This document shows positions 11,876 to 33,494 of a stretch of DNA of 33,494 nt, piece by piece. The translations under genes and the position numbers were made by a program. Within the stretch, counting starts at the first letter, position 1. The number at the start of each line of letters is the position of its first letter. The notes under the pieces are model-generated. The model saw nothing but the letters and a program-made list of their open reading frames with translations, was not told where the DNA came from and made no database searches. Source of the stretch: Pirellulales bacterium (GTDB lineage: Bacteria; Planctomycetota; Planctomycetia; Pirellulales; JADZDJ01); contig JADZDJ010000056.1 of NCBI GenBank assembly GCA_020851115.1, positions 1 through 33,494 on the forward strand, read 5' to 3'.

Positions 11876-12751
11876 TCAGGCTTCGGGCACGGCGGGCGAT
11901 GGCATCGGCTCGACCGGCACTGCCGCCGCTGCCTCTTGGGCTGCCGCCACATGCCGGCCATAGAAAAAGGCCAGCATCCAGTGGAAGAACCGCGGAAAGT
12001 ATCGCTTCGCTCGAACGCAAATCCGCGCTCGCGGGCCGCTGATGACATACAGCTTGCGCTTGCGCACTCCGCGCCAGGCCGCTTCCGCAACATACTCTGA
12101 AGTGAGATTTGTCCAGGTCATCCAGTATTCGCCGTCGCGGCGGAGTTGTTCGTTTTGAAACCGGCCTCCCTTGAGCAAATTCGTCGGCACGAAGCCGGGG
12201 CAGAAGCAGGTTACTCCGATCTTGTGCGGCTTGAGTTCGCCGTAGAGAGCCTCCGAAAACGACAACACTGCCGCCTTCGACGAGCAATACGCGGCACACG
12301 TCGGCACGGCGGTAAACGACGCCAGCGACGCGGTATTCAGAATGTTTCCTCCAGCCGGATTCCGCTTGAGCCACGGAATCAGCTCGTGGCAGCCGTAAAC
12401 GACGCCCCACCAGTTGGTTTGGAAGACGGCCTGCCAGTCGTCGTCGGTGAATAGTTCTGCCTCGCCAGCGGCGGCGATTCCGGCGTTGTTCACCAGCAGA
12501 TCGAGCTTTGGCCAGCGCTGGGCCAATTCGGTATGAAGCGTCCTCCAAGCTGCGCGATCGCCGACATCCTGCACGAAGCACTCCGCGGCTCCGCCTGCGT
12601 TTTCGACGAGCGATTTCGTTTCGGTCAGCCCTAAACCGTTGATATCCACCAGCGCCAGTCGCCAGCCTTCGCGGGCAATTCGCACCGCCAGCGCGCGGCC
12701 AATTCCCGATGCCGCCCCTGTGATAATGCCATGACGCTCTTGAGAAGCCAT
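11876..12751 (-). CDS. Short-chain dehydrogenase/reductase
   Basis: A 291-residue classical SDR oxidoreductase. The cofactor motif is T11-G-AAS-G16-I-G18, with D36 after the second strand (LALVDI), which favours NAD(H). NNAG is at residues 88-91. The catalytic tetrad N113, S142, Y155 and K159 is intact (QTN; NTASL; YCSSK). The C-terminal 50 residues extend past the usual fold: a hydrophobic YFPRFFHWMLAFFYGRHV segment and an Ala/Pro-rich tail, which may bind membrane. ATG at 12751 is supported by GGAGAGG seven bases upstream. It has no obvious pathway neighbours. The substrate is unknown; lipid or ketone reductases often have such tails. Confidence 0.9.
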   Translation of the reverse strand: MASQERHGIITGAASGIGRALAVRIAREGWRLALVDINGLGLTETKSLVENAGGAAECFVQDVGDRAAWRTLHTELAQRWPKLDLLVNNAGIAAAGEAELFTDDDWQAVFQTNWWGVVYGCHELIPWLKRNPAGGNILNTASLASFTAVPTCAAYCSSKAAVLSFSEALYGELKPHKIGVTCFCPGFVPTNLLKGGRFQNEQLRRDGEYWMTWTNLTSEYVAEAAWRGVRKRKLYVISGPRARICVRAKRYFPRFFHWMLAFFYGRHVAAAQEAAAAVPVEPMPSPAVPEA

Positions 12752-13160
12752 GCGGTGCCCTCTCCAGCCAAAGTAGAGCCGTCCTTGGCAAATATTTTAC
12801 ACAGACAATTTAGAGTACTGGAATTCGCCGCGAAAGCAAGTTCTTTCGATTGGTCATCTCTACGCGAAATCGGCTCGACGCCATCCTGTTCTCAACGCCG
12901 GCATGGTAAACCATTGCTGTCGAAAGAGACCAATTGCCAATTTACGATTGTTGCAGGCAGTAGTGGAAACCAGCGATTGGCACATCCTTTGCACTGTCGA
13001 AAATCTCATAAATCCCGATTGCCAGCCCTGCACGGCAGGCGTGGCGAAGTTAGAATTGGACAAGTCATCGGCGGAACATGGCAGGTAGGAATTGTTTGCC
13101 TGAAGTGGTTGTGCTGAACTGCCGATGTAAATGTGGCTGCAAGAAATCGCTATAGTTTTT
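12752..13160. other. Non-coding stretch upstream of SDR gene
   Basis: Roughly 400 bases with no frame that looks coding. It should contain the SDR promoter (minus strand). A TATAGT at 13151-13156 on the plus strand could be the -10 box for the RNA candidate that follows, but its -35 region is poor. Confidence 0.35.
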
Positions 13161-13380
13161 GTTGGAAGATTCTGTTAATTACACCAACCAAGCGTACAAG
13201 CCTCTTTCCGTACTTCCGTCGGCGGACCCACTATTAATTCGACGGCCCGGGTCAAACGGAGCCAGTGCTTAGCACGGTCCGATCCGCGCCGCTCTCGAAG
13301 CGACTCCACCGTCGCAATCGGAGAGAGGTTTGACTTTCGAAACCGGGCCGTGGCCTCTGCGCCGCGAGCCCGGTTTTTTC
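13161..13380 (+). ncRNA. Candidate structured small RNA ending in an intrinsic terminator
   Basis: The stretch folds into a compact series of helices by exact complementarity. GTTGG 13161-13165 pairs with CCAAC 13184-13188, and CCGTCG 13216-13221 with CGACGG 13240-13245. A long-range helix, GTCAAAC 13251-13257 with GTTTGAC 13328-13334, closes a junction. Inside it are two hairpins: GGA/TCC, CC/GG and GTGC/GCAC at 13258-13280, and CTCTC/GAGAG plus GCGAC/GTCGC at 13292-13325. A strong terminator follows at once. No protein frame fits. The sequence lacks the hallmarks I know for SRP RNA, tmRNA, RNase P RNA or c-di-GMP riboswitches. It is not upstream of a plus-strand gene, so a trans-acting RNA is likelier than a riboswitch. 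The 5' end is uncertain. Confidence 0.5.
13341..13379 (+). terminator. Strong intrinsic terminator of the RNA candidate
   Basis: AACCGGGC 13341-13348 pairs with GCCCGGTT 13368-13375. CGTGGC 13349-13354 pairs with GCCGCG 13361-13366 (one G-U pair), with a 6-base loop and a single bulged A at 13367. A run of six Ts occupies 13374-13379. The T-run sets the direction as plus strand. Confidence 0.8.
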
Positions 13381-13804: not shown

Positions 13805-14761
13805 CTAGCAGCGTTCGATTTTCAGGTCGTGCTGCTCCATGAAAGCGAGGGCTTCTTCGCGGGTGAAGACGCTGTCGGTGGCTCCGACCGACCTGACACA
13901 GCTCGCTCCCAAGGCGCTGCCCCAGTGCAGACAGCCGATTTCGTCTTCACCCGCGAGCATGCCGGCAATGTAGCCGGCGTCGAAGGCGTCGCCCGAGCCG
14001 GTGCCGCCGACGAATCGAGTCGGATAGACGGACGCTTTAATCCGCTGCCGGTCGCTCACCAGCAACGTGCCGCGTTCGCCTTGAGTAATGACCACCGTGC
14101 GAGCGCCGGCGGAGCGAAATTTCTCGGCTTGGGCTAGTGGTTCTGAGTGGCCGGTAATCATGGCCGATTCGTGGTCGTTTGGCAGAAAGACGTCGGTATG
14201 TGGTAGCACGTGTTCGAGTTTCGGCCAGTGGTCGCCGGGAGCCGGCACGACTACATCGAGCACGGTCTTTACTCCGGCCTGCTGCGATTGTCGAAACACT
14301 GCCGCTAAACCAAGGGAGCTTTCCATCGCAGGCATCAGCAAATATCCGCCGACATAGAGTACCTTGGCCCGTCGGACCCGTTCGATGGGAATATCTGCGG
14401 CCGACATGACGGCATTGGCACCGGCCGTGTGAATAAACCGCCGGTCTTCGCCCTTGACGTTGATAATCAGCGTGCCGCTGGTTTCGACGCCATCCAGTTC
14501 GCGCACGCCGCTGGTTTCGACGCCGGCCGCTTGAAGCGTTTCGATCACAAACCTGCCGAACAGGTCGCGGCCCACGCAGCCCACGACGCCGACTTTGACG
14601 CCTACGCGGGCTAGATTCATTGCGACATTCGATGCGCAGCCGCCAATGGAGAGGGACAGCCTCTCGCACATTTCCAGTTCCCCGGCCCCCGGCATGCGAG
14701 CGATCGGCGAACAGAGATGATCGGCGACAAGAATTCCTACGCTCAGGCAATCAAGCGACAT
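13805..14761 (-). CDS. PfkB-family carbohydrate/nucleoside kinase
   Basis: A ribokinase-like ATP-dependent sugar or nucleoside kinase of 318 residues. The N-terminal family signature is the glycine-rich SIGGCASNVAMNLARVG region at about residues 37-53. The C-terminal signature GGTGSGDAFDAGYIAG carries the catalytic aspartate D258 and the anion hole. Substrate-side features such as GVVGCVGRDLFGRFV and DVFLPNDHES are typical of the family. ATG at 14761 is chosen over an upstream TTG at 14776 because MSLDCLSVGILVAD begins directly with the first beta strand. It sits 142 bases after rplT on the same strand, with a hairpin between them. The phosphorylated substrate cannot be assigned from sequence. 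Confidence 0.9.
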   Translation of the reverse strand: MSLDCLSVGILVADHLCSPIARMPGAGELEMCERLSLSIGGCASNVAMNLARVGVKVGVVGCVGRDLFGRFVIETLQAAGVETSGVRELDGVETSGTLIINVKGEDRRFIHTAGANAVMSAADIPIERVRRAKVLYVGGYLLMPAMESSLGLAAVFRQSQQAGVKTVLDVVVPAPGDHWPKLEHVLPHTDVFLPNDHESAMITGHSEPLAQAEKFRSAGARTVVITQGERGTLLVSDRQRIKASVYPTRFVGGTGSGDAFDAGYIAGMLAGEDEIGCLHWGSALGASCVRSVGATDSVFTREEALAFMEQHDLKIERC

Positions 14762-14854
14762 GGCGGAACTGGCCAATTATGTTGCTTCGGTGCGGAGACG
14801 CGACTTCGTTCCTACGAACCCCAGGCCGCGACCATCAGGAAGCGATTGCTCTTT

Positions 14855-32613: not shown

Positions 32614-33494
32614 GGTCAAGCTACTAAGGGCACATGGGGGATGTCTTGGCGTTAGGAGGCTTTGAAGGGCGTGGAAGACTGCGATAAGCCCGGGGGAACT
32701 GTCAAACGAGTGTTGATCCCGGGATTCCCGAACTGGCACATACCGAATCCATAGGTATGCTGCAGCGAACGCGGTGAACTGAAACATCTCATTAACCGCA
32801 GGAAAAGAAAGAAACCTCGATTTCCTCAGTAGCGGCGAGCGAACGGGAACATAGCCCAAACCGCGGTGGTTTTCCTCCGCGGGGTTGTAGGGCTTCTCAC
32901 ATGGGAGTTACCAAACAAGCGGTTAGCTGAATCTTCTGGAAAGTTGAACCATAGACGGTGACAGTCCGGTAAGCGAAAGCTGCTTGTCTCCCGAGAAGTA
33001 CCTGAGTAGGTCGAGTCACGTGGAACCTCGACTGAATCTACGGGGACCATCCCGTAAGGCTAAATACTCCCTAACGACCGATAGTGAACTCAGTAGGGCG
33101 ACTGAAAGATGGGAAGAACCCCTGCTAGGGGAGGATAGTGAACCTGAAACCATGTGCCTACAAGCGGTCGGAGGACTATGCCCGCTTCGGCGGGAATGTC
33201 TGACGGCGTGCCTTTTGCATAATGATCCGGCGAGTTGTCGTTAACGGCAAGGTTAAGGCTTTTAGGGCTGTAACCGTAGGGAAACCGAGTCTGAATAGGG
33301 CGAATAAGTCGTTAGTGGCAGACGCGAAACTGCACGAACTACCCATGAGCAGGCTGAATCTCGGGTTATACCGAGTGGAGGGCCGAACCCGTCTGGGTTG
33401 AAAACCGGTGGGATGACTTGTGGGGAGGAGTGAAAGTCTAATCAAGCGCAGAGATAGCTCGTTCTCTCCGAAATAGCTTTAGGGCTAGCCTTGA
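32614..33494 (+). rRNA. 23S ribosomal RNA, 5' part (partial)
   Basis: The sequence aligns by eye to the first roughly 830 bases of E. coli 23S rRNA. Landmarks in order are GGTCAAGCTACTAAGGG (5' end), GGGGGATGTCTTGGC, GGGGGAACTG, GAACTGAAACATCTCATTA, CCTCAGTAGCGGCGAGCGAA, GGACCATCCCGTAAGGCTAA, ACCGATAGTGAACTCAGTA, AACCTGAAACCATGTGCCTA, GGAAACCGAGTCTGAATAGG and GGATGACTTGTGG. It leaves the window within domain II. No intron or large insert is seen in this part. No 16S gene, tRNA or spacer lies within at least 1 kb upstream. The 5' end is set by comparison, accurate to a few bases. Confidence 0.97.

Follow-up and report, generated by a model that had tools for sequence, protein, structure and literature searches.

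A conserved, terminator-ended structured RNA of Pirellulales and Planctomycetales without a match in Rfam

The described RNAs that are closest to the one analysed here are 6S RNA, SRP RNA, tmRNA and RNase P RNA. With 6S RNA it shares a stand-alone gene present in one copy, a length of about 190 nt and its own terminator, as well as the general architecture, i.e., a closing stem, a large internal loop whose 3' strand bears a hairpin, and an apical stem; the conserved sequences are, however, different ones. With SRP RNA, tmRNA and RNase P RNA it has in common a near-universal presence, a single copy and a similar size range. Likeness of another kind is found in the antisense sRNAs of Firmicutes that carry C-rich loops (RsaE/RoxS, RNAIII), in which a CU-rich loop is able to pair with Shine-Dalgarno (SD) sequences. 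A CU-rich loop is also present in the RNA described here, which, in contrast to these sRNAs, possesses much longer conserved unpaired segments and has a wider taxonomic depth. Planctomycetes, where this RNA occurs, have an unusual cell biology, and to our knowledge hardly any of their small RNAs have been studied. The Rhodopirellula-1 motif, listed for Planctomycetes and Proteobacteria without an Rfam accession, was graded as likely cis-regulatory (Weinberg et al. 2010, PMC2864571); compared by description only, it resembles our RNA in its occurrence in Planctomycetes and is set apart by the cis-regulatory label and by its occurrence in Proteobacteria. A literature search found no paper naming the RNA, and the planctomycete names searched for are absent from the main text of later surveys of noncoding RNAs (PMC8632094, PMC6429828, PMC11109978).

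The window, i.e., the whole analysed stretch of 33,494 nucleotides of a Pirellulales genome (contig JADZDJ010000056.1), was originally predicted to contain a structured RNA in a protein-free gap at positions 13161-13380. This prediction is confirmed: the segment is situated between an SDR gene and a gene of a PfkB-type kinase (Table 1), and its predicted folding energy (-96.9 kcal/mol for 220 nt) corresponds to a z of -5.8, with none of 200 dinucleotide shuffles being as good. The core without the terminator (13190-13338) gives -63.9 kcal/mol and a z of -4.8. The energy of a single-sequence fold can mislead, and on its own it would not settle whether the RNA is structured. The window ends within a 23S rRNA gene, whose 5' part occupies positions 32614-33494; neither a 16S rRNA gene nor a tRNA gene was found in the 32 kb upstream of it, as expected for unlinked rRNA genes.

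Thirty homologues align with each other over the whole length between closing stem and terminator, both included, once the minus-strand matches are turned (alignments A1 and A2), and covariance model R1 was built from them; R2 is a broader model. The window scores 135.8 bits with R1 and 128.9 bits with R2. In alignment A2, 94.5% of the cells are paired and both-sided changes are present in 20 of the 30 pairs. Cells with double-sided compensation number 117 as opposed to 31 in shuffles, and for every measure none of 500 shuffles of A2 equals the observed value. When the partners are slid by 1-3 columns as a control, pairing in A2 falls to 32-47%. With 68 distinct sequences, 28 of the 30 pairs vary on both sides, in an alignment that was fitted to the model and leans towards it; in a mutual-information ranking of all column pairs over 100 sequences, whose alignment was likewise fitted to the model, the top 21 are all pairs of the structure. 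Closing stem P1 has double-sided changes in all eight of its modelled pairs and P2 shows double-sided compensation in almost all of its pairs, so that both vary freely in sequence while the pairing persists. Because G-U cells in the homologue alignment outnumber A-C cells 160 to 28, the RNA must be encoded by the plus strand.

Most of the local helices of the original prediction proved to be real, and so did the terminator, which had been described as a 14-bp stem with a T6 run and is drawn here as a 16-bp bulged stem. A terminator-like hairpin with a T run is present within 90 nt downstream of the core in 118 of 144 homologues, and throughout the homologues the terminator directly follows P1. 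It is the long-range 7-bp helix between 13251-13257 and 13328-13334, singled out originally, that does not stand. The two stretches are complementary in the window, but the helix is missing from the MFE fold, depending on the position, only 28-69% of 100 homologues keep a standard pair there, and it competes with strongly covarying pairs (13251-13253 with 13281-13283 and 13328 with 13201). The true closing stem is 13197-13210/13319-13332. Since the 7-bp helix is not conserved and its positions are used by covarying helices, the initial observation is confirmed only in part: when the relatives are inspected for changes that break the stems, the overall structure persists and the singled-out helix does not.

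Table 1. Positions in the window of the RNA, its structural elements, the upstream elements and the bordering genes.
Feature	Positions	Strand	Basis or remark
SDR gene	11876-12751	-	left border of the protein-free gap
TAGAAT, possible -10 box of a longer transcript (weak)	13051-13056	+	analogy with homologues
TGCCGAT element	13120-13126	+	conserved at variable distance upstream
Conserved RNA core	13190-13338	+	150-position covariance models R1/R2, covariation
Closing stem P1, 14 bp	13197-13210/13319-13332	+	MFE fold, covariation
Unpaired 5' strand of internal loop	13213-13237	+	alignments; consensus AUUCCGUCGGAGGUGCCAACCC, window UUCCGUCGGCGGACCCAC
Apical hairpin P2/P3, tip GUGC-UUA-GCAC	13238-13299	+	MFE fold, covariation
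P2 lower helix, bulged	13238-13246/13288-13299	+	MFE fold
P2 upper helix	13248-13253/13281-13286	+	MFE fold
Hairpin tip helix	13265-13268/13272-13275	+	MFE fold
Conserved stretch CTCTCGAA (UUCUCGCA in most)	13292-13299	+	partly 3' arm of the P2 base
Hairpin P4, GCGAC-UCCACC-GUCGC, CU-rich loop	13300-13315	+	stem 13300-13304/13311-13315; alignment, MFE fold
Intrinsic terminator: bulged stem, 16 bp, loop, T6	13339-13379	+	stem 13339-13354/13361-13377, T6 13374-13379
PfkB-type kinase gene	13805-14776	-	right border of the protein-free gap

Comparison with covariance models, one of the checks proposed originally, did not connect this RNA to any described family. No match to the 4227 families of Rfam 15 was found at the locus at the gathering score, and permissive settings gave nothing better than an E of 4.7; in scans of 20 homologues with their flanks, nothing rose above chance at the locus. 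The best family by bits, Streptomyces RNA Scr3202 (RF02833), reaches 15.9 bits where the gathering score is 52, and its E of 9.9 marks a chance match; it shares with the window RNA only a terminator-like GC-rich hairpin. SRP RNA (RF00169), tmRNA (RF00023) and RNase P RNA (RF00010) can be rejected as identities of the RNA, their genes being located elsewhere in the same genome and in the relatives searched (tmRNA falls below the cut-off in one of 12). The RNA is not a regular 6S RNA either: at the locus RF00013 finds nothing, whether in the window (E up to 10) or in the 20 homologues (E up to 1), and it matches other loci with E <0.01 in 12 of 40 relatives (in three of them over the cut-off), all 12 of which also carry the window-type RNA. 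In the window's own genome there is no convincing 6S match. As a separate observation, of the 40 Pirellulales genomes G000-G039 just three contain an RF00013 match that reaches the cut-off, and 12 contain one with E <0.01; 6S RNA of this order thus appears to be poorly covered by the model, which probably misses most of its members.

The suggestion that the locus encodes a new small RNA is therefore supported by the lack of an Rfam match, by covariation, conservation over two orders and the terminator, and by the lack of conserved neighbours. What is new is the RNA family; the general kind, a stand-alone structured RNA ending in a terminator, is already known. That positions 13190-13379 hold an RNA at all is nearly certain.

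A plain DNA search was run on 58 genomes, of which all but a few belong to the same order as the window, and about half of them yielded clear matches. Model R1 found the RNA in 108 of 118 Pirellulales genomes; a single copy is the rule, and the window's own genome is the one exception. A sample of the class showed it in most or nearly all sampled members of family f22, which we take to be Planctomycetales because it includes Gimesia-type sequences, and it was not found among the listed members of families f21, f23, f24 and f25. The broader model R2 gave nothing convincing elsewhere in the phylum, outside Pirellulales and Planctomycetales; the one match outside the two orders (22 bits, E 0.009) was treated as chance. 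The plasmids searched contained no match. Even with lenient filters, there was none in G007, a closed genome of family f6, or in G013 and G029 of family f12, and thus these lineages either can do without the RNA or carry a version too diverged to be recognised. The RNA is likely to be important to the cell, being single-copy and kept in more than 90% of the sampled Pirellulales species and in most Planctomycetales.

A further copy of the RNA, diverged and scoring 83 bits, lies in the assembly that contains the window, at L084:2442-2588 (G000:C208, a contig of 3.8 kb); the copy most similar to it is that of G008 (family f7), with which it shares 77% identity. The assembly also has an additional SRP RNA gene. 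The contig with the second copy is probably a contaminant (the contamination of the assembly is 3.5%); possibly, the copy is a paralogue instead.

The most conserved bases of the RNA are largely unpaired, with single bases kept at 98-100% across the two orders. They belong to three mostly unpaired stretches, namely the segments on either side of P2, with AUUCCGUCGGAGGUGCCAACCC preceding it and UUCUCGCA following it, and the loop of P4, which is rich in C and U. C13217, G13218, C13220, G13222 and G13225 are each found in 98-100 of 100 homologues, and G13222 and T13295 in all 100. Judging by predicted energies, the GGAGG of the 5' strand may contact the P4 loop: a kissing interaction would be energetically compatible (mean -7.3 kcal/mol), but the advantage of the true GGAGG/P4-loop pairs over shuffled partners is not clear (fraction 0.09).

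This pattern of conservation suggests a constant partner rather than fast-changing mRNA targets, since the most conserved bases are largely unpaired, and because P1 and P2 vary freely while the unpaired segments do not, action in trans through such a partner can be proposed. The RNA would be transcribed from its own promoter, as we infer, would not be translated, and would work as a ribonucleoprotein-type RNA, 6S-like in general style. Variable in sequence but structurally constrained, P1 and P2 would present three conserved surfaces to the constant partner: the CU-rich loop of P4, the UUCUCGCA stretch and, in the internal loop, the 5' strand. The partner, which would most likely be a protein or a protein complex that is itself conserved, may dock there and have its activity modulated. 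We infer that a regulator of the ribonucleoprotein type is the best-supported reading. At the level of sequence comparison, the fold, strand, terminator, deep conservation and lack of gene linkage can be regarded as established; the ribonucleoprotein-type mechanism taken alone has somewhat less than an even chance of being correct, while a stand-alone trans-acting structured noncoding RNA of a new family together with such a mechanism, both read loosely, has slightly more than an even one.

Several other readings have to be weighed against it. The RNA may be a trans-acting antisense sRNA whose P4 loop (UCCACC and its variants) blocks translation at the SD regions of many mRNAs. C-rich loops aimed at SD sequences are a known device of sRNAs, the P4 loop is CU-rich in nearly all homologues, and CUCC occurs within the core in 107 of 148 distinct sequences. 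However, the 5' strand of the internal loop and UUCUCGCA are conserved like the loop, beyond what a short seed needs, and the loop itself differs between families (GCAUCC, UCCACUC, UUUACCCC). Antisense sRNAs are, besides, usually conserved over much shorter evolutionary distances than this RNA, and no Rfam match to any C-rich-loop antisense sRNA family was found in the window or in the 20 homologues, so we consider this reading rather unlikely. The consensus GGAGGUG of the 5' strand is complementary to the anti-SD at the 3' end of 16S rRNA, GGAGG is present in 117 of 148 distinct sequences, and capture of the anti-SD by this SD-like motif could regulate ribosomes. The full GGAGGUG is found, however, in only 59 of the 148, and the position reads GGCGGAC in the window and GAGGGAC in family f16. 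Because the motif varies whereas its 16S partner would not, anti-SD capture is very improbable.

Another rival reading is that of a 6S-type RNA, the second of its kind and highly diverged, which would bind RNA polymerase by mimicking an open promoter. The architecture, the length, the stand-alone gene and the single copy that our RNA shares with 6S RNA speak for it, but the silence of RF00013 here and in the 20 homologues, its matches at other loci in relatives that all bear the window-type RNA, and the lack of any obvious shared sequence make this unlikely. Still less can be said for a role in cis, with the RNA as a leader of a neighbouring gene (riboswitch or attenuator) or as a product of that gene's 3' UTR. 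Riboswitches often end in an intrinsic terminator, as this RNA does, but no plus-strand gene follows it, as was pointed out originally, and the flanking genes and their orientations vary between genomes at every homologous locus examined. It follows that the RNA is not a riboswitch or a leader and is unattached to any gene, which leaves the cis-acting reading scarcely credible. Finally, the sequence is GC-rich, and lone folds can mislead, but covariation and conservation over two orders refute both a structure that arose by chance in GC-rich intergenic DNA and a coding region, and the indels are not multiples of three, as opposed to what a coding region would show; the probability of this explanation is next to nil.

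The RNA could be a fifth general housekeeping RNA of Planctomycetes, limited to Pirellulales and Planctomycetales, never described and comparable in its role to 6S or SRP RNA, which we consider a tentative proposal falling short of an even bet. Such an RNA might form an RNA-protein particle or be an RNA regulator of a core machine. Two planctomycete orders appear to rely on a small RNA that is absent from Rfam, and with the covariance model and consensus structure its gene can readily be annotated, and deleted in a cultured strain.

The RNA of core and terminator is about 190 nt long; possibly, the transcript has an additional 5' leader of 60-200 nt. A promoter scan of the window gave no good match, while in the homologues TANAAT -10-like boxes cluster 0-40 and 100-140 nt before the core. 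The element TGCCGAT occurs upstream on the sense strand in 64 of 144 homologues as opposed to 8 in reverse, and in relatives it is found 10-300 nt upstream of the RNA. It was not seen before the tmRNA, RNase P or SRP genes and thus can be rejected as a general signal of housekeeping RNA genes. A subset of relatives contains upstream the arrangement TANAAT-N8-9-GGGTTGCAG-hairpin, which was likewise not seen before these three genes. Fourteen homologues carry a succession of elements that starts with a -10-like box and continues with GGGTTGCAG (or a close variant of it), a stable hairpin and, as a rule, TGCCGAT; some of the transcripts may therefore carry a 5' domain.
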